DNA from: a virus
Virus record (IMG/VR): IMGVR_UViG_3300048033_000498
Location: 1 to 23,219 of that record
Reading direction: 5' to 3' (one strand)
DNA: 23,219 nt
The translations under genes were made by a program, and so were the position numbers. Positions 2,028 to 18,290 of this stretch are shown here, piece after piece. The notes under the pieces are model-generated. The model saw only the letters and a list, made by a program, of their open reading frames with translations. It searched no databases and had not been told where the DNA came from. Positions within the stretch are counted from its first letter, which is position 1; every line of letters begins with the position of its first letter.

Positions 2028-2388
2028 AGCGGTAGCTGACACCTCCCTTGTCCTCAATTGCCTCAAAGGTAATGACCTTGCCGATCATACGACCCTTGTA
2101 TCGGCTTGGGACCAGTACCGGTACACGTTTACCAATCTCCTTACTGTACACGTAGTTGTACCGTGGGTTCGGGCACTCCTTGAGAACCTTGCCTTTGAAG
2201 TGCTTAGGTATGATTTCCTCAATCATAAAGGAACTCTCTAGTATCTCAGTACCTTCCTCGGTTACCCAGGTGTTCTTACCTCGACCAGTCAGCGAACCCT
2301 CTGGTAGCTTCTCAAGCGCGATGCGCATAGCTTCCTCGAAATCCACTTCTTGTTCTTCTGCGATTTGTATTAGTTTCTTCTTAGGCAT
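2017..2388 (-). CDS. Conserved-looking packaging-region protein (123 aa), unknown function
   Basis: The gene starts with ATG at 2388 in a TAATG overlap with the terminase stop. A textbook AGGAGG Shine-Dalgarno lies a few bases upstream, inside the last terminase codons. Residues 1-50 begin with a lysine cluster (PKKK) and predict helical, with a helix-turn-helix-like run (LIQIAEEQEVDFEEAMRIAL) followed by a basic loop and the WVTEEGTEIL strand. The C-terminal half is basic and beta-rich (RVPVLVPSRYKGRMIGKVI), which could be a small SH3-like barrel. It may be a DNA-binding accessory of packaging. No family is recognised with confidence. Confidence 0.8.
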   Translation of the reverse strand: MPKKKLIQIAEEQEVDFEEAMRIALEKLPEGSLTGRGKNTWVTEEGTEILESSFMIEEIIPKHFKGKVLKECPNPRYNYVYSKEIGKRVPVLVPSRYKGRMIGKVITFEAIEDKGGVSYRYAK

Positions 2389-4061
2389 TAGTATCCTCCT
2401 TTACCTCTGTTGGTAGTTTGCATTTTATTGGATGAAAAGAAATCCGGCCCTTCGCCGCCGTTCGACATTCTCAAATATCGAATAACGTCAAAGAAATCCT
2501 TCAGTGGCTCGTCACTTTTCCCCGCTGAGTTGTAGTTAATAAGGCTGTCGATAAGGTTACCGCAGTCCTTGTGAATATAGCATAGAGGTCGATTGGCTTC
2601 GTCTACCCCTACGTTGGGGTTATAGTTAAACCAATCATCAAGGGCAGTAATCCCTTGTTCCTCCATCTTACCGTCCGATGGTATAAAGCTTAGACCGTAA
2701 TCATAGAACGAAGTAAATAGGTCATCATTGTTCTCATTCTCCCTAGCAAAGAAACGGGAGTCCCCAATCCTCTCGGTTACTTCTATCTGTAGGTCATCCT
2801 CGATCTCCTTGAATAACTCGCAGTACCCCTCGACATTTAACCCGATCTTCTTGGCTGCTGGTCCGTACTTCCACTTAGGGTCCCCGAACATAGCCCACTC
2901 GCCGTACGTATCCCGGTCAGGCCACTCCCTGCGAATATATACTTCACCCTGTTCGTTTACACCAGCCCATATGCAGGTGTAGTTCCTTGCACCAGCGGGG
3001 TCAACCACCTGGTAGCAGGTGAACTGTGACTTATCCGAAATGTCGGGGAACGTCATCTCGTACTTGTTGGGTTCCTCTGATAGTACGTTTACCTCAGTAT
3101 TGAAGAATGGCAATAAAGCATTAGCGGACTTAACAGGTAAGCCGTAGGCACGAACCTTGATCTCATCATCAGGGCGACCAGCTAGGTCCTTTGCAATTCG
3201 CTCATAGCCACCAAAGGGGTTCTCGTCCGAGTGCAGGTAGATCACGGCCGCATCACGGCTAGGACTGTACTGCTTGATAGGTAACTCCTTGTTATTAAGT
3301 AAAGCAGCAGGTCGAGTCTCCAGTGTCTCGGCTCCCTTTAAGTAGTCCGAGATGAATGGCGTGTACCCGTCAATCGGGGTGAAACCAATCACCATCTTTG
3401 AGTCCCGTGTAGCTAGTCGGAAACGTAGGGTATTAACCAGCGAAGCATCACCTAGGTACTCATCCAGCCAGGCTCCTATGTTGGACTCCTCCCCAGCCTT
3501 GATGTTCTCCTTGCGGAAACCGAACTCGAAACCCTCAAGGATAGTAGCATTGTTGCTGTACTGCGTATAGGTCTTGAAGTCCACACGTGTCCTTGTATCA
3601 GGGAACACGAAGGAACTACCCGTGAAACCATTCTGCATAGAATAATTGATATAACCATCAATGCTCTTGGTCTTCTTCTTGAACTCCTTGGGCATCATCT
3701 CCCAGATGGCTGGCTGCTGTACCTTAATAGAGGTATCCGCATTCTGAGAAAAACAAACAATGTGACCGTCATTGTTAGAACTGACAGCCTCCATTATGCG
3801 CTTTGCACAGCCCGTTGTTTTGCCGCTTCGATTTCCACCTAGGGCTAGTACCTCATTATAATCCTTGAATGAATCCGTCATACGCTCCCAGCCCGGAAGG
3901 TCGAACCCGTGGCGGATGGGATCCTCTGTAGCCGCCTGTATGCGTCCCTCGTGCGCCTTGTGGAGTTCCTCAAGTAACTTAGGGTCAGCCTCGCCAAGAA
4001 GGACTATCTCCTCGTCCGTGGGTGGCTTGAGGATCGGGTGCTCTGTGAATTCAATTGGCAT
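2388..4061 (-). CDS. terL: Terminase large subunit (packaging ATPase/nuclease)
   Basis: This is the motor that pumps DNA into the procapsid and cuts the concatemer. At 557 aa it is of usual length. The Walker A motif is GGNRSGKT at residues 75-82. The Walker B motif is IGAWLDEYL around 195-203 with the acidic pair D200/E201. The coupling motif is VIGFTPIDGYT around 224-233. The C-terminal half carries the RNase H-like nuclease acids, seen in QVVDPAGARNYTCIWAG and later in ERIGDSRFFAR. The start ATG at 4061 overlaps the stop of the 28-aa membrane peptide as TAATG, and its own stop overlaps the next ATG in the same way, so the three are translationally coupled. Confidence 0.97.
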   Translation of the reverse strand: MPIEFTEHPILKPPTDEEIVLLGEADPKLLEELHKAHEGRIQAATEDPIRHGFDLPGWERMTDSFKDYNEVLALGGNRSGKTTGCAKRIMEAVSSNNDGHIVCFSQNADTSIKVQQPAIWEMMPKEFKKKTKSIDGYINYSMQNGFTGSSFVFPDTRTRVDFKTYTQYSNNATILEGFEFGFRKENIKAGEESNIGAWLDEYLGDASLVNTLRFRLATRDSKMVIGFTPIDGYTPFISDYLKGAETLETRPAALLNNKELPIKQYSPSRDAAVIYLHSDENPFGGYERIAKDLAGRPDDEIKVRAYGLPVKSANALLPFFNTEVNVLSEEPNKYEMTFPDISDKSQFTCYQVVDPAGARNYTCIWAGVNEQGEVYIRREWPDRDTYGEWAMFGDPKWKYGPAAKKIGLNVEGYCELFKEIEDDLQIEVTERIGDSRFFARENENNDDLFTSFYDYGLSFIPSDGKMEEQGITALDDWFNYNPNVGVDEANRPLCYIHKDCGNLIDSLINYNSAGKSDEPLKDFFDVIRYLRMSNGGEGPDFFSSNKMQTTNRGKGGY

Positions 4062-8869: not shown

Positions 8870-9130
8870 ATGAAAAAAATAAGCGACACATATAAAGAAC
8901 TAGGGATTGCCTTTACTTTCCCTATCGAGATTTTAGATACCAACGGCAACCAGACTTATTATGAACTCAGTGATGGCTACTGGAGCAAATCTGAGCGTGA
9001 TGCCATCGGTAACAGAACTTACTTTGAAAACAGTGATGGCGAAAAGCTAGGCACACCTAAGTCCGCCAAGACCTGCGAGGGCAAAGTCGTCGAGGTAGAT
9101 GGAATCAAATATAAACTAACAGCACTATAA
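8870..9130 (+). CDS. YD/MORN-like repeat protein, copy 1 (86 aa)
   Basis: The N-terminal 20 residues (MKKISDTYKELGIAFTFPIE) closely match those of the 89-aa protein at 12884. Next come repeats of about 20 residues with the pattern G-x-x-TYYE-x-SDGYW-x-x-x-ERDA (here at NQTYYELSDGYWSKSERDA, then NRTYFENSDG), and a shared GTPKSAK segment. Copy 1 has two repeat units and a unique C-terminal extension (VVEVDGIKYKLTAL). Such aromatic-acidic repeats recall YD or MORN repeats. Function is unknown. Leader ends AAATACT before ATG. Confidence 0.8.
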   Translation: MKKISDTYKELGIAFTFPIEILDTNGNQTYYELSDGYWSKSERDAIGNRTYFENSDGEKLGTPKSAKTCEGKVVEVDGIKYKLTAL

Positions 9131-9399: not shown

Positions 9400-9584
9400 G
9401 CGAAGCAACACACGCAATCAATGAATTCTCGGATCTGTACGAATCCGCAATGCGGAATCATAAGCTAATGGAGGAGGGTCGCCAAGCGGTGGCTCACTTC
9501 CGGAGGCTAGGTCTAATCAAGGATGCTCGCCGCACCAAGACAGGGCGCGCATCGTACCCAACATATGGAAAGAAAAGAAAATGA
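9396..9584 (+). CDS. Small basic protein (62 aa) upstream of nuclease
   Basis: ATGA-coupled to the gene before it and to the nuclease after it; AGGAGG lies 4 nt before the ATG. The N-terminal half is helical (AINEFSDLYESAMRNHKLME) and the C-terminal half basic (RRLGLIKDARRTKTGR, KKRK end). It could be a DNA-binding or nuclease accessory protein, from charge and coupling only. Confidence 0.8.
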   Translation: MSEATHAINEFSDLYESAMRNHKLMEEGRQAVAHFRRLGLIKDARRTKTGRASYPTYGKKRK

Positions 9585-10342
9585 GTCACTTCTACAGCTG
9601 TAACGATATACTGAACCCTCAGTTTGAGGCGGACATTCTAACACCTGCGCAGGCACGGAAGGTCAAGAAGGTCTACCCTTCTGTAACGACAGTGCTAGGC
9701 ATAGTAAAGGATGCCTTCCTGGATAGCATCTATAAGCCCCGAATGATCACGCAACTGGCAAGGGAGTACCCACACCTAGTCTGGCAGGAGATCGAGCGTC
9801 TTACCTATGGTACAAGGGAGCACCCGGTTACTGGTGAGGAGATTCAGTCCTCGGAGTTCGGGACGACCGTTCACAAGGTCATTGAGGACTTCATCAATCA
9901 CGACTACCTAGAGATGGGAGAATCCCCACGGGATACACCTTGGAATGACTGGGCTATGCCGTTCGTTGAGTGGGTTCACGAGAGCGGGGTAAAGCCAGTG
10001 GCCTGTGAGCACATCATTGCAAGCAATCGTATTAAGATTGCAGGCAGTGTTGACTTCATCGGGTACGACAGTGATGAGAAGTTATTCCTCGCGGACTACA
10101 AGTGCCGAACCAATACAAAGGGCAAGGCTAAGTGCTATGACAAGGACTGCCAACAGCTAGGCATTGAAGCCTATATGATGATGAAGGAGCACAAGCTGGA
10201 CTACCTGCCGGAGTGCATCTCAGTGATCATTGATTGCGATACAAAGAAGCACTACCACAAGGTCTGGAGCGAGGAAGAGCTTGACAAGGGCATCAAGGTA
10301 GCAAAGAAATGTGCGGAGCTGTACTGGATGCTCAGAATGTAA
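9581..10342 (+). CDS. RecB/Cas4-like PD-(D/E)XK exonuclease
   Basis: Expected to degrade or resect DNA ends for recombination-dependent replication. The 253-aa product shows the family motifs in order: GTTVH (94-98), a glutamate in CEH (143), GSVDF (155-159), ADYK (171-174) and QLGIEAY (192-198), which correspond to the GxxxxH-like, GxxD, DxK and QxxxY motifs of RecB/Cas4/lambda-exo type nucleases. No Cys cluster for a Cas4-type iron-sulfur centre is evident, although C143-neighbouring and C185/C190 cysteines exist. The start is ATGA-coupled to the 62-aa gene. It likely partners the ERF annealase at 14261. Confidence 0.88.
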   Translation: MSHFYSCNDILNPQFEADILTPAQARKVKKVYPSVTTVLGIVKDAFLDSIYKPRMITQLAREYPHLVWQEIERLTYGTREHPVTGEEIQSSEFGTTVHKVIEDFINHDYLEMGESPRDTPWNDWAMPFVEWVHESGVKPVACEHIIASNRIKIAGSVDFIGYDSDEKLFLADYKCRTNTKGKAKCYDKDCQQLGIEAYMMMKEHKLDYLPECISVIIDCDTKKHYHKVWSEEELDKGIKVAKKCAELYWMLRM

Positions 10343-10372
10343 AACATAAACATAACCTAAAAGAAAGATACA

Positions 10373-11422
10373 ATGTGGATAATACCAAAACAATTACACA
10401 CCTCAGCCTCTGCTCTGGATACGAAGGCATTGGGATTGGACTCCGAAGAGTTCTCCCAAATCTGCGAGAGATCGCTTACGTGGAGAGGGAAGGATTCCCT
10501 GTCGCGAACCTGGTTGCAAAGATGGAAGCGGGAGAACTGGATGCAGCACCTGTGTTCACGGACGTTAAGACCTTCCCTTACGGAGAGTTTCGTGGATGCG
10601 TGGACATCCTCAGTGGTGGCTTCCCGTGCCAACCATTCAGTGCTGCTGGAAAGCGTAACGGCGTTGAAGATCCGAGACACCTCTTCCCATACATCGCCAA
10701 CGGAATCCGAGAGTGCCAACCTCGAATTGTTTTCCTCGAAAACGTTGAAGGAATCATCTCAGCCAAGACAGCAGACGGAGAGTCAGTTCTCCAGTATGTC
10801 CTCCGAGAGTTGGAAGGCTTGGGTTACCGAGCAACGGCAGGAGTATTCTCAGCGGCTGAAGTCGGCGCGCCCCACCAGAGAAAGCGAGTCTTCATCCTTG
10901 GCTTGGCCAACAGCGAGCGTAGCGGGTTGCGTGGAGGGTGGAGTAGTAAGCAATGTGGAGATAACCTCAACGGGCTTCAAGGCAACAAGGGAGAGCGGTA
11001 TAAGCTACGGAGCGAAGCTGAGAGATGCAGTGGAGACTTACGAGAAGAAGAACTGGCCAACAGCAACAACACGGGATTGGAAGGACACCAATGCGACAGT
11101 ACCTCCGAGCAGGGCGAACCCGTCCAAGCAAACACTTGGGCAACGGGTGGCACACATTGGCCTTCTCGACCAGGCGAACCCCAGCACGACTGGGAAGAGC
11201 CAAGGGTCACAGCAGTGGGCGACACCAAGAGCAAACAAGGTTCACCCAGTGATAACGGAGGAGAACAGGGAGCATCTAGCCAATCGAAACAAGTCAAACC
11301 TAGAGGAGGAGATTGCGGGTCACTGCGGCAAAGCACAGGGCAAGCTGAACCCGGACTGGGTCGAGCAACTAATGGGTCTTCCAGTAGGGTGGACCGACTT
11401 AGGCTCTTGGGAAATGGAGTAG
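10373..11422 (+). CDS. Nested overlapping frame inside methyltransferase (349 aa)
   Basis: Read one base before the methyltransferase frame on the same strand, this open frame starts at ATG 10373 behind a leader (AAAAGAAAGATACA) like other early genes. Its second half has motifs known from phage methyltransferase target-recognition regions: WPTATTRDWKDTN, WATPRANKVHPVITEENRE and GKLNPDWVEQLMGLPVGWTDL (split here for length). Its first half has a segment I recall from hypothetical proteins (ESWKAWVTEQRQEYSQRLKS). A random frame opposite a conserved enzyme would not be expected to hold these, so I infer it is coding. Alternatively it joins the N-terminal enzyme through a frameshift. Confidence 0.6.
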   Translation: MWIIPKQLHTSASALDTKALGLDSEEFSQICERSLTWRGKDSLSRTWLQRWKRENWMQHLCSRTLRPSLTESFVDAWTSSVVASRANHSVLLESVTALKIRDTSSHTSPTESESANLELFSSKTLKESSQPRQQTESQFSSMSSESWKAWVTEQRQEYSQRLKSARPTRESESSSLAWPTASVAGCVEGGVVSNVEITSTGFKATRESGISYGAKLRDAVETYEKKNWPTATTRDWKDTNATVPPSRANPSKQTLGQRVAHIGLLDQANPSTTGKSQGSQQWATPRANKVHPVITEENREHLANRNKSNLEEEIAGHCGKAQGKLNPDWVEQLMGLPVGWTDLGSWEME

Positions 11423-11478
11423 TCCCTGCTACGGCAGCTAAGGCATTCTTAACCTTGATACAACGGCTCAATGACTGA
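10375..11478 (+). CDS. DNA (cytosine-5) methyltransferase
   Basis: Transfers a methyl group from SAM to C5 of cytosine in DNA, usually to evade host restriction. Motifs are in canonical order: I LSLCSGYEGIGIGL (10-23), IV with catalytic C85 in GGFPCQPFS, VI ENVEG (122-126), VIII QRKRVFIL (168-175) and X LGNGVVPA (345-352). The region between, the target-recognition domain, is Gly/Ser-rich and variable. I prefer GTG 10375 as start, giving 367 aa, because it overlaps the nested frame's ATG (ATGTG); ATG 10309 would extend 22 residues back into the nuclease gene. No cognate restriction enzyme is seen. A second long frame (10373-11422) overlaps nearly all of it. Confidence 0.92.
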   Translation: MDNTKTITHLSLCSGYEGIGIGLRRVLPNLREIAYVEREGFPVANLVAKMEAGELDAAPVFTDVKTFPYGEFRGCVDILSGGFPCQPFSAAGKRNGVEDPRHLFPYIANGIRECQPRIVFLENVEGIISAKTADGESVLQYVLRELEGLGYRATAGVFSAAEVGAPHQRKRVFILGLANSERSGLRGGWSSKQCGDNLNGLQGNKGERYKLRSEAERCSGDLREEELANSNNTGLEGHQCDSTSEQGEPVQANTWATGGTHWPSRPGEPQHDWEEPRVTAVGDTKSKQGSPSDNGGEQGASSQSKQVKPRGGDCGSLRQSTGQAEPGLGRATNGSSSRVDRLRLLGNGVVPATAAKAFLTLIQRLND

Positions 11479-11674
11479 GTACGAGATACGCACCAAGCGT
11501 GACGATATGCCGGAGGGCTACGTCGGCAAGGTGTACAAGTGGGCGCACGACGAGAAGGCGGCAACCCTGCTTTTATTGAAGAAGAGACCCGATCCCAGTG
11601 GTCGCTGCGTGTTCAAGCGTGGCGGCACTGGCCAGATATTATCAGTAACAGAAGTAAAACATAATCAGAAATAA
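11471..11674 (+). CDS. Hypothetical protein (67 aa) after methyltransferase
   Basis: Overlaps the methyltransferase stop by 8 nt, so it is translated by coupling. The product begins MTEYEIRTKRDDMPEGYVGK and is small, basic and mostly beta (GRCVFKRGGTGQILSVTEV). No family recognised. Confidence 0.75.
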   Translation: MTEYEIRTKRDDMPEGYVGKVYKWAHDEKAATLLLLKKRPDPSGRCVFKRGGTGQILSVTEVKHNQK

Positions 11675-12883: not shown

Positions 12884-13153
12884 ATGAAAAAACTAAGCGA
12901 AACACTGACGGAACTAGGGATTGCATTCAGCTTCCCTATCAAGATTAAAGATTCCAATTGCAGAACTACTTACTGGGAAGAAAGCGATGACTACTGGACT
13001 AGGTACGAGCGTGATGCCAAGGGTCGTCCAACTTACCACGAAGACAGCAATGGCTTCTGGTGCAGGTGGGAGCGTGATGCCAATGGGGATGTGGATTACT
13101 ATGAGGACAGTACAGGCGTAAAGAAGGGAACGCCTAAATCAGCCAAGAAGTAA
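12884..13153 (+). CDS. YD/MORN-like repeat protein, copy 2 (89 aa)
   Basis: Paralogue of the protein at 8870, sharing the MKK-x-S-x-T-x-x-ELGIAF start and the GTPKSAK end. It has three repeat units (TTYWEESDDYW, RPTYHEDSNGFW, DVDYYEDSTG), separated by ERDAKG and ERDANG, one more unit than the other copy. The units have a period of about 20 residues. Function unknown; gain or loss of a unit suggests an adaptable binding surface. Confidence 0.8.
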   Translation: MKKLSETLTELGIAFSFPIKIKDSNCRTTYWEESDDYWTRYERDAKGRPTYHEDSNGFWCRWERDANGDVDYYEDSTGVKKGTPKSAKK

Positions 13154-15645: not shown

Positions 15646-15861
15646 ATGACTGATAATATAACCGAAACACACCGTAACGAAATGACTAAAATAAAAGAAG
15701 CAGCTGAAGTATCCCTCTCAATCTATAACTCAATTGATGGTTATAAGATCCCGGAAGGAAACCGCGTAGCCCATAAGTCCCTTGGACAAGTCCTTCGTTC
15801 TCTGGTAGAATTACTTGAAAATGAACGATCTGGATCTACAAATACACAATCAGCCACATAG
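15646..15861 (+). CDS. Hypothetical protein (71 aa) overlapping helicase start
   Basis: Starts at ATG 15646 just after the stem-loop. The product is helical (HRNEMTKIKEAAEVSLSIYN, then AHKSLGQVLRSLVELLENE). It overlaps the first 41 nt of the helicase gene, so it may couple helicase translation. No family recognised; a helicase loader would normally be longer. Confidence 0.7.
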   Translation: MTDNITETHRNEMTKIKEAAEVSLSIYNSIDGYKIPEGNRVAHKSLGQVLRSLVELLENERSGSTNTQSAT

Positions 15862-17158
15862 TGCTGAAGCCGAGGAAAAACTAATTGCATCCTGCTTACT
15901 GCCAGGTGACACATCCATATACGATATGGTTCGTCCCCTGCTTGAGCCAGAGGATTTTTACTTATTACGCTTTAGATTACTTTACCAAACTATTGGTGAC
16001 CTTGCACAGCTAAGTCAGCCAATTGATGAGGTATCAATCTCAGAGCACCTGAAGACCCTACAAGGGCTTGACGAGGTCGGAGGCATAGCAGGTATACTGT
16101 CAGTCACTGACAGCGTCTCCAGCACCACCTCAGTTAAGTTCTACGCCAAGACAGTAGCAGAGAAGGCAAGGCTTCGTGAGATTATGAAGTCCTGCCGACT
16201 CGCTGTTGAGGAGGTTGAGAATGAGTCCAAGTCCTACGACGAGATCCGCAGTACCCTTGAGGCTCAGATAACCGAGCGTCCGCTCCTTACCCAAGGCAAG
16301 GCTGACATAGGTTTCTCGGCTGACGAGTTACTGGCTGACATCGCTAAGATGCAGGCTGGTGAGTACGAGGCTGACGTTGTTAAGACTCATACCAATAATC
16401 TGGACCGTGAGTTCGGCAACCGGGGCATCGCTGCTGGTGAGGTACTGACAGTGGCGGCACCTACCTCCTGTGGTAAGTCAGCACTTGCTATGTACATCGT
16501 CTCTCAGTCCGTTGTAAAGGATGGTCACGCCTGCGGGGTGTTCTCCTTGGAGATGCCACAGAAGCAGCTCACAAAGCGACTGACGCAGGTTATCTCAGGT
16601 GTTAACCTACGTAGTGTTGAGGATCAGACAGCTAACCCACAACAGGAGAAGCGAGTCTACGATACCATCAACCAACTGAAGTCCTTACCTATATATACTT
16701 CGCACGCTGTTAAGAACGTAGATGATCTGTACAGTCAGACACGTCAGTTCGTACAGAAGCACGGAGTAAAGCTACTGGTGATTGATTACCTCCAGCTGAT
16801 ACCGTTCTCATCCAGAATGGGCAAGGCTGAGGGCATCGCTAGTATCTCTCACAAGATTAAGCAGATGGCTATTGATCTCAACATAGCCGTGATCCTACTG
16901 GCACAAGTCAACCGAGAGGGAGCCAAGGCTGGCCGACTTAAGTTGTATGACCTGAAGGATTCCGGGGACATTGAGAATGATGCTGATATTGTTCTGCTTA
17001 TGTATCCGTCAAGCGGTGATGTTGAGTCCTCAAAGGACGTAGACAGCCGAGGGGCGTTCACTCGCTTAACCTATGAGATCGCTAAGAACCGTGAAGGTGA
17101 ACGTGATATCGGTGGGTTATTTAAATTCTATCACTGCACAGGGAGGTTCGGACAATGA
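15821..17158 (+). CDS. dnaB: DnaB-type replicative helicase
   Basis: Hexameric helicase that unwinds DNA ahead of the fork. From ATG 15821 the product has 445 aa (a TTG two codons earlier is possible). The N-terminal HSAEAEEKLIASCLL matches the DnaB primase-binding domain start. The RecA-like core shows Walker A APTSCGKS (about 213-220), FSLEMPQKQL (H1a-type), Walker B LLVIDYLQL (about 318-326), LAQVNREG and the DSGDIENDADIVLL block, then the arginine finger-like KNREGERD. Host replicative polymerase is the likely partner because none is encoded here. Its stop overlaps the next start as ATGA, and a GGGAGG sits just upstream. Confidence 0.96.
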   Translation: MNDLDLQIHNQPHSAEAEEKLIASCLLPGDTSIYDMVRPLLEPEDFYLLRFRLLYQTIGDLAQLSQPIDEVSISEHLKTLQGLDEVGGIAGILSVTDSVSSTTSVKFYAKTVAEKARLREIMKSCRLAVEEVENESKSYDEIRSTLEAQITERPLLTQGKADIGFSADELLADIAKMQAGEYEADVVKTHTNNLDREFGNRGIAAGEVLTVAAPTSCGKSALAMYIVSQSVVKDGHACGVFSLEMPQKQLTKRLTQVISGVNLRSVEDQTANPQQEKRVYDTINQLKSLPIYTSHAVKNVDDLYSQTRQFVQKHGVKLLVIDYLQLIPFSSRMGKAEGIASISHKIKQMAIDLNIAVILLAQVNREGAKAGRLKLYDLKDSGDIENDADIVLLMYPSSGDVESSKDVDSRGAFTRLTYEIAKNREGERDIGGLFKFYHCTGRFGQ

Positions 17159-17565
17159 CGGAGGAAGAAGTAGCACAGTACATAATGGCAGCATATCCAC
17201 GGATGCACAAGCTGACCAAAGCCGAGGACGAGTTCAGTCCTTTTGATTACGAGAGCATTGATTATCTGGTTGAGATTAAGGTACGCCGGAAGGCATATGA
17301 CCCCTGGATCATCGAGCAGTTAAAGGTTGATACCAATATCGGTATCGCTGAATCAGTAAAGAAGGACTTCATTTATGTGAACGGATTTCAGCACCTGCTG
17401 TACGCTTGGAATATATCTAAGCTAATTCGGGATGACTATGACTTCGGGTTCGAGGATCGTGAGATGCCCTGGACTACGGACTTCGATGCAGTACAAATAA
17501 TAACTAAGCGCACTGGGTACTTGTACAACAGCAGCGCACTAATCATCAACACGGAGGGACTATGA
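17155..17565 (+). CDS. Putative PD-(D/E)XK-like protein (136 aa)
   Basis: ATGA-coupled to the helicase. Residues 30-42 (FDYESIDYLVEIK) resemble the nuclease signature of an acidic residue then ExK (E40, K42), followed by a conserved-looking RRKAYDPWIIEQLKVD. I have seen this arrangement in small phage proteins beside helicases, but no activity is known to me. The C-terminal part is hydrophobic-aromatic (FGFEDREMPWTTDFD). A structure-specific or end nuclease is a hypothesis. Confidence 0.65.
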   Translation: MTEEEVAQYIMAAYPRMHKLTKAEDEFSPFDYESIDYLVEIKVRRKAYDPWIIEQLKVDTNIGIAESVKKDFIYVNGFQHLLYAWNISKLIRDDYDFGFEDREMPWTTDFDAVQIITKRTGYLYNSSALIINTEGL

Positions 17566-18290
17566 TAACTAAAGAAACATCAAAGGATATAACAGTAAAC
17601 GGAGTAAGGGTAACCTGCTACTCAGATGGCAGTGTAGAGGTTCACGGCAGTCGCAGTCGCGGGAGATCATTTGGCTCGACAAACGGCGATGGCTATATGA
17701 GGAAAACTGTTAATGCGCAAAAATTCAAAGTCCACGATCTGACCGCAAGAGCCTTCCTGGGGAATAAACCAAAGGGCTATGACGTTGATCACATTAACGG
17801 GAACAAGGCTGACAACAGACCATCTAACTTGCGGTACGTGACACGATCTGAAAACCTAAGAGGATACCAGAAGGTTCGCGGTAAGTCCAAGTACAGGGGT
17901 GTAACAGCCCCGAACAACAATCCTAAGTTCATTGTGAACGTAGGTCTAGGTAAAGAGCATCAATACAAGCTCAAGTACTTGGGTTCATTTACTGACGAGA
18001 AGGAGGCAGCTATTGCTCGTGATACCTTCTGTTTTGAGGAACTAGGTTTTCCACCAGAAGGGTTAAATTTTCCTGAGTTATTTGTTGACAAGCAGGAGGA
18101 TTCCGTACAGGTTTCCAGTATGCAAAACACTGAAGAAAACATTGAGCGAGTTCAGACCCAGATTGATATGATTCGGCAGGAGTCCAGGCTTCTGTCATAC
18201 CGTATTGATCGTATGACTGATCAGCGAAAGAGTCTTCAGGAAGAGAAGCGCAAGCTCAAAGATTTCCTTACGCAGGCTAGAAAGCCATAG
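17562..18290 (+). CDS. HNH endonuclease with AP2 domain and coiled-coil tail
   Basis: Free-standing HNH endonucleases of this type are usually homing enzymes that spread themselves among phages. The 242-aa product has an N-terminal beta region, an HNH core with VHDLTARAF (57-65) and DVDHINGNKADNRPSNLR (74-91), and an AP2-like DNA-binding region (about 110-172, KYRGVTAPNNNPKFIVNVG, LKYLGSFTDEKEAA). A helical tail at about 188-240 is predicted coiled coil (LSYRIDRMTDQRKSLQEEKR) and is extra relative to the usual enzyme. The start is ATGA-coupled with GGAGGG upstream. It is the last gene of the early module. Confidence 0.9.
   Translation: MITKETSKDITVNGVRVTCYSDGSVEVHGSRSRGRSFGSTNGDGYMRKTVNAQKFKVHDLTARAFLGNKPKGYDVDHINGNKADNRPSNLRYVTRSENLRGYQKVRGKSKYRGVTAPNNNPKFIVNVGLGKEHQYKLKYLGSFTDEKEAAIARDTFCFEELGFPPEGLNFPELFVDKQEDSVQVSSMQNTEENIERVQTQIDMIRQESRLLSYRIDRMTDQRKSLQEEKRKLKDFLTQARKP

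Follow-up and report, generated by a model that had tools for sequence, protein, structure and literature searches.

The cytosine methyltransferase gene of this virus encodes two proteins, in two reading frames of the same strand, which begin at the overlapping start codons of a single ATGTG. We analyzed a stretch of 23,219 nucleotides (the window; IMG/VR virus record IMGVR_UViG_3300048033_000498, positions 1 to 23,219). We call the catalytic protein alpha and the nested protein beta. Our analyses establish dual coding, the allocation of methyltransferase motifs to the two frames, selection on both frames, a conserved double start, and turnover of modules within beta. Probably, given their sequence motifs, alpha and beta are the two chains of one C5 methyltransferase, in which beta would provide motif IX and recognize the target in trans. 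The main features of the locus are:

10375..11478, + strand: alpha, the C5-cytosine methyltransferase frame (367 amino acids from GTG; matches PF00145 and phrog_363)
10373..11422, + strand: beta, the nested +1-frame gene (ATG at 10373 to TAG at 11420-11422; 349 codons)
10373..10377, + strand: ATGTG double start (ATG starts beta, GTG starts alpha)
10358..10367, + strand: weak purine-rich stretch, possibly a shared ribosome-binding site, judging from the sequence
10615..10650, + strand: alpha motif IV, GGFPCQPFSAAG, with the catalytic PC (invariant in alignment A2)

As the first-pass annotation reported, both open reading frames are on the + strand and their ATGTG starts overlap. Alpha overlaps all of beta but 2 nt, or about 1 kb. 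The alpha frame can be extended upstream to an ATG at 10309, which is its start in the list of open reading frames. Judging from the sequences, GTG at 10375 is almost certainly the working start, because it is the only upstream frame-1 start in many homologues. Alpha matches PF00145 (E = 3.9e-35) and phrog_363 (E = 7.3e-57), and its top match in PDB, both by sequence and by fold, is M.HhaI. The C5-methyltransferase motifs I, IV (PC), VI (ENV), and VIII are all present in alpha as invariant columns of alignment A2. The window also encodes a terminase large subunit (2388-4061, - strand), a PDDEXK exonuclease (9581-10342), a DnaB-like helicase (15815-17158), and an HNH endonuclease (17562-18290). 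Among the ten window ORFs that we scanned, we recognized no partner restriction endonuclease, only the PDDEXK exonuclease and the phage-type HNH endonuclease; searches for tRNAs and Rfam families gave no match anywhere in the window.

The nested frame had been suspected of being coding, and codon shuffling, frame-specific substitution rates, and frozen synonymous sites bear this out; we consider dual coding of the locus to be nearly certain. When we shuffled the synonymous codons of alpha, the 348 codons of frame 2 stayed open in 0 of 3,000 trials, with a mean of 6 stops. A search with beta found 180 viral relatives; those that we fetched mostly span residues 1-349, at 46-83% identity. In 71 distinct viral homologues, neither frame is interrupted anywhere along its length. 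Because a search with beta selects for beta, we repeated the sampling with the N-terminal half of alpha alone: both frames were intact in 69 of 70 complete loci, although many of these contigs are also in the beta-search set. The exception (L106) has a single indel after motif VIII, from 2501, which moves both frames together and is either a sequencing error or a recent pseudogene. Random stops or drift of the nested frame in 10900-11422 were not observed; this region is the more constrained part of beta.

We compared frame-specific substitution rates across 25 independent pairs of homologues, with 58 pairs of flanking genes as controls. In the control genes, dNN/dNS was 1.14 and dSN/dSS (which is approximate because SS sites are few) was 1.18, while in the N-terminal half of the locus they were 0.78 (0.64-0.92) and 0.22 (0.14-0.34). 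For the C-terminal half, dNN/dNS in frame 2 (beta) was 0.64 (0.52-0.79) and dNN/dSN in frame 1 (alpha) was 0.95 (0.83-1.08), and codon positions rank in the reverse of their usual order (d1 of 0.211 exceeds d3 of 0.168). Past the stop codon of beta, frame 1 has a dNN/dSN of 0.17, which is strong ordinary constraint. Together, the shuffles and the frame-specific rates rule out a chance open reading frame.

Synonymous sites of alpha are also frozen where beta residues need them. We considered conserved residues of alpha with fourfold-degenerate codons, in about 64-69 sequences. In the N-terminal half, 14 of 64 such sites have an invariant third base, and each of these fixes a residue of beta. 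For example, the codon for V36 of alpha is always GTG, which gives W37 of beta, and the third bases for G150, A153, T154, G156, and A160 of alpha are frozen and give V151, Q154, R155, E157, and R161 of beta. Past the stop of beta, 0 of 7 fourfold sites are invariant, and the mean entropy rises from 0.53 to 1.49 bits.

Within the overlap, the parts of the two proteins are:

10373..10600, + strand: beta N-terminal extension, residues 1-76, over alpha motifs I-III (invariant residues; low dSN)
10796..10867, + strand: beta conserved helix MSSESWKAWVTEQRQEYSQRLKSA, residues 142-165 (the most synonymously frozen block)
10904..11344, + strand: beta recognition region with W[PA]T[PA]-type modules (frame-2 constraint; modules gained and lost)
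11345..11401, + strand: beta motif-IX-like LNPDWVEQLMGLPVGWTDL, residues 325-343 (invariants in alignment A1)
10924..11415, + strand: alpha linker, residues 184-347 (kept open; near-neutral amino acids except for a short block)
11161..11208, + strand: constrained alpha block PSRPGEPQHDWEEPRV within the linker (A2 invariants Q270, W273, E274, R277)
11389..11448, + strand: alpha motif X, VDRLRLLGNGVVPATAAKAF, residues 339-358 (overlaps the end of motif IX in the other frame)

The N-terminal extension of beta has nine invariant residues (E32, L35, W37, R38, K40, W47, R50, L60, and L65) and a low dSN in 10444-10581, and it is missing from most of the distant relatives. The recognition modules are at W178, W228 (WPTATTRDWK), and W282 (WATPRANKVHP); the latter two motifs and a third, which the first-pass annotation quoted, are all in the nested frame. 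Near its end, beta has the motif-IX-like LNPxWVExLMGxPxGWT, with L325, N326, P327, W329, V330, E331, L333, M334, G335, G339, W340, and T341 invariant in alignment A1. Its sequence and its collinearity with other methyltransferases suggest that LNPDWVEQLMGLPVGWTDL is motif IX.

Comparisons to profiles link beta to the recognition half of methyltransferases. Residues 75-343 of beta align to positions 36-281 of phrog_1008 (DNA methyltransferase; E = 1.1e-11), and positions 286-321 of that profile match the alpha frame instead of beta. We also built a profile from 133 nested frames at other loci, some of which are closely related to the window; it gives 193 bits on the window's beta (P0002). This profile matches annotated second chains of methyltransferases from Mycobacterium phage Firecracker (gp5, 87 bits) and Arthrobacter phage ArV1 (067b, 86 bits). 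It also matches residues 160-320 of the one-frame methyltransferase RitaG (36 bits), which is the region between motifs VIII and X. The proposed kinship of the nested frame with target-recognition regions of phage methyltransferases is thus upheld. The profile does not match alpha (the score is below zero). Beta has no match in Pfam or PDB, and we rejected an HNH or intein-type insertion as its identity on those grounds. AlphaFold's model of beta alone is poor (pLDDT of 43) and unusable, and the helix at residues 142-165 is the only well-predicted part (pLDDT around 80). Low confidence would be expected for a chain that depends on a partner or is poorly sampled, and we treat this model as neutral evidence.

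For alpha, AlphaFold gives a pLDDT of mostly 80-95 for residues 1-180, around 30 for residues 184-347, and around 92 for residues 350-366, so motifs I-VIII and X are predicted to be folded and the linker to be disordered. The C-terminal half of alpha looks like a linker that carries motif X, because it is near-neutral, is predicted to be disordered, and does not match the profile of the recognition region; a target-recognition domain and motif IX are both absent from alpha. The first-pass annotation had proposed that two versions of a recognition domain are written over each other. We rejected this idea given the near-neutral evolution of the C-terminal half in frame 1 (0.95), its pLDDT, and its lack of a profile match. 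The constrained block PSRPGEPQHDWEEPRV overlaps a bin (11134-11202) with a dNN/dSN of 0.51. If codons are shuffled synonymously with respect to frame 2, the probability that the C-terminal half of frame 1 has no stop is about 0.003 per sequence, yet stops were seen in 0 of 66 sequences. Apparently, frame 1 is held open there to reach motif X (VDRLRLLGNGVVP) at its end.

The double start ATGTGGAT is nearly invariant among homologues, and where it has been lost, both proteins still have starts. Two loci (L070 and L165) have GTGTG; four (L001, L035, L046, and L072) have a separate upstream ATG for alpha and ATGATNAT for beta; and in L073 and L074, the ATG for beta is displaced 9 nt upstream. The Shine-Dalgarno signal is weak; just 25 of 82 loci have a Shine-Dalgarno-like 4-mer. 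As at AUGUG ambiguous start sites, the AUG and GUG overlap and a long open reading frame follows each. In E. coli, reporters and toeprints have shown that ribosomes can translate both frames from AUGUG and GUGUG (PMC9841429). Those ambiguous initiation sites have the same overlapping start codons, including the GUGUG variants, but they were studied in reporters and at E. coli sites, while the window's locus has long conserved proteins in both frames (PMC9841429). By analogy, both frames would be translated from the AUGUG at this locus, and initiation at AUGUG is probably the route of expression in the window's clade.

If so, ribosomes would initiate in either frame at the AUGUG. The GUG frame would give alpha, with the catalytic domain (motifs I-VIII), the disordered linker, and the helix of motif X. 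The AUG frame would give beta, with its overprinted N-terminal part, the target-recognition modules, and motif IX. Alpha and beta would form a complex, with beta giving in trans the DNA-recognition half that alpha lacks, and the pair would methylate DNA, probably to shield the phage's DNA from host restriction. Since both chains would start at one AUGUG, the choice of initiation codon would set the alpha:beta ratio.

Two-chain methyltransferases of this kind are known. The small chain of M.EcoHK31I is reportedly also encoded in an alternative frame within the large chain. In this C5 methyltransferase of two polypeptides, the larger chain has motifs I-VIII and X and the smaller has motif IX (PMC3404938). 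As judged by sequence motifs alone, the window's locus divides the motifs in the same way (I-VIII and X in alpha, IX in beta). However, M.EcoHK31I and M.EaeI belong to restriction-modification systems, while the window's gene is from a phage and has no recognized restriction enzyme nearby. Also, unlike in M.EcoHK31I, the window's beta (349 amino acids) spans nearly all of alpha and shares its ATGTG start. The recognition modules are in beta at the window, while the recognition domain of EcoHK31I is in the larger chain (PMC3404938). In M.AquI, Firecracker gp6/gp5, and ArV1 067a/067b (phrog_1008), the second polypeptide bears the recognition region and motif IX, as in the window, and the beta of Firecracker and ArV1 likewise begins within alpha in the +1 frame. 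But their beta also holds motif X, which at the window is read in alpha, so the M.AquI-type arrangement (IX and X both in beta) is not found here, and alpha and beta of Firecracker and ArV1 overlap by just 209-266 nt instead of about 1 kb. RitaG has motifs I-VIII, the recognition region, IX, and X all in one frame. Gordonia phage CheeseTouch (L094, 1489-2523) has PTPTASDAD-type recognition motifs in the +1 frame and motifs IX and X in frame 1, which might be an intermediate between the one-frame and nested forms. In ShiLan, as in the window, a protein is hidden in the other frame of a phage methyltransferase gene, but the element in ShiLan is a mobile HNH insertion, while the window's overprinted protein is related to the recognition region of methyltransferases (PMC11855218). 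Overall, the window has a phage version of a known two-chain kind, overlapping from start to end and started by AUGUG, and our searches indicate that the layout is much more widespread than M.EcoHK31I and M.EaeI alone would suggest.

Alternatively, beta might be a separate protein that is not part of the methyltransferase (such as a regulator or an anti-restriction protein), with alpha acting alone through motif X and some minimal segment for recognition, for instance the WEEP block. Alpha does retain motif X and a conserved PSRPGEPQxEWEEPRV block, and neither the PDB search nor the AlphaFold model assigns a fold to beta. But the core of beta is homologous to the VIII-X region of one-frame methyltransferases and to the beta chains of split methyltransferases, and the rest of the C-terminal half of alpha is near-neutral and predicted to be disordered. 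We consider this alternative unlikely.

A single complete methyltransferase could also be made by frameshifting, with a +1 shift after motif VIII into frame 2 and a -1 shift back before motif X. The order of parts in one-frame relatives such as RitaG (I-VIII, recognition region, IX, X) is collinear with such a fusion. However, one message would need two opposite shifts; the N-terminal half of beta, which a fusion would skip, is constrained; homologues conserve or re-create the start of beta; and in Firecracker and ArV1, alpha stops right after motif VIII and beta is annotated as a separate coding sequence. The first-pass annotation had left open whether the frames are used as separate proteins or joined by frameshifting. 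A separate protein with its own start is the most likely, and we think that a fusion is quite improbable. Finally, it is barely credible that frame 2 is open as a side effect of conservation in frame 1, of codon usage, or of RNA-level constraint: frame-1 conservation does echo in frame 2, and 46 of 3,000 shuffles remain open for a GC-rich Synechococcus phage (L002), but the shuffles, the rates relative to the 58 control pairs, and the end of the constraint at beta's stop all argue otherwise, RNA structure is not expected to switch constraint by codon phase, and we found no homologue with a random frame 2.

The nested layout is present in phages annotated for Acinetobacter, Salmonella, Synechococcus, Paenibacillus, Acidovorax, Pseudomonas, and other hosts, and in plasmid records from Acinetobacter and Leptospira. 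A DNA pattern for overlapping motifs IX and X, which preselects this overlap and not an open beta frame, gave hits to at least 120 stretches of the viral collection and at least 118 of a collection of bacterial and archaeal genomes. We fetched 80 from each, and 64 (viral) and 69 (bacterial or archaeal) had a complete frame-1 methyltransferase. Upstream of motif IX, the beta frame is open for a median of 231 codons (viral) or 212 codons (bacterial or archaeal), versus 9 for the third frame, and 86-87% have p ≤ 0.01 relative to shuffles. The first possible start of beta is internal in 93 of 103 cases, typically 150-190 nt into alpha. In the other 10, beta and alpha have coincident starts, with beta's lying exactly -2 nt (ATGTG) or +4 nt (NTGAATG) from alpha's. 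The window falls in this minority with coincident starts, and its beta has the additional constrained N-terminal extension. Two contigs titled as Bathyarchaeota and Alkanophagales MAGs (L311 and L347) also have the nested IX/X pattern; these contigs may be viral or misbinned.

Recognition modules turn over while both frames stay intact. Most beta proteins have 1-7 motifs of the W[PA]T[PA] type, and one has none by the pattern that we used. Across homologues, alpha varies from 302 to 518 residues and beta from 287 to 502, and the two lengths are tightly correlated (r = 0.992). For 144 pairs of homologues, the DNA of the N-terminal half is over 93% identical and the C-terminal halves differ by at least 30 codons, with both frames kept, which is the pattern that turnover of specificity would be expected to leave. 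More broadly, we lean towards the view that a large fraction of phage-type C5 methyltransferases work only as two chains, the recognition chain being overprinted on the gene for the catalytic one, with one AUGUG setting the chain ratio in the window's clade and modules being swapped under selection in two frames at once.

If beta is the specificity subunit, then many "DNA cytosine methyltransferases" in the databases lack half of the enzyme, attempts to predict specificity from alpha by itself will fail, and phage methyltransferases that have been cloned may seem dead because beta was recoded away. The locus also offers a natural setting in which to test dual initiation at AUGUG. When annotated prokaryotic genomes were surveyed, 0 of 715 cases proved to be genuine co-directional overlaps of more than 60 bp (PMC2478687); in contrast, this overlap of about 1 kb is conserved, with signals in hundreds of homologous sequences. 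We found no description of the overlap in phage methyltransferases in the open-access literature that we searched. Pieces of it are annotated (BLOOM_57, Acidovorax gp46, and ArV1 067b), but these annotations do not describe the arrangement itself.

In Acidovorax phage Alfacinha3, the coding sequence annotated as "cytosine-specific methyltransferase" (gp46; L087, 1496-2662) is the beta frame, and the alpha frame (VALHSIELCAG...), which starts at the GTG of gp46's ATGTG, is unannotated. In Paenibacillus phage Bloom, the beta frame is annotated as a second "DNA cytosine methyltransferase" (gene 57, BLOOM_57; L092, 1745-2449) inside gene 56. Within the window, an antisense open reading frame of 195 codons with a TTG start (10977-11564, - strand) faces the doubly coding C-terminal half. 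Two related small open reading frames, at 8870-9130 (MKKISDTYKELGIAFTFPIEI...) and 12884-13153 (MKKLSETLTELGIAFSFPIKI...), have repeated units resembling YxxDSxGxWxRxERDAxG, and both end with GTPKSAK.
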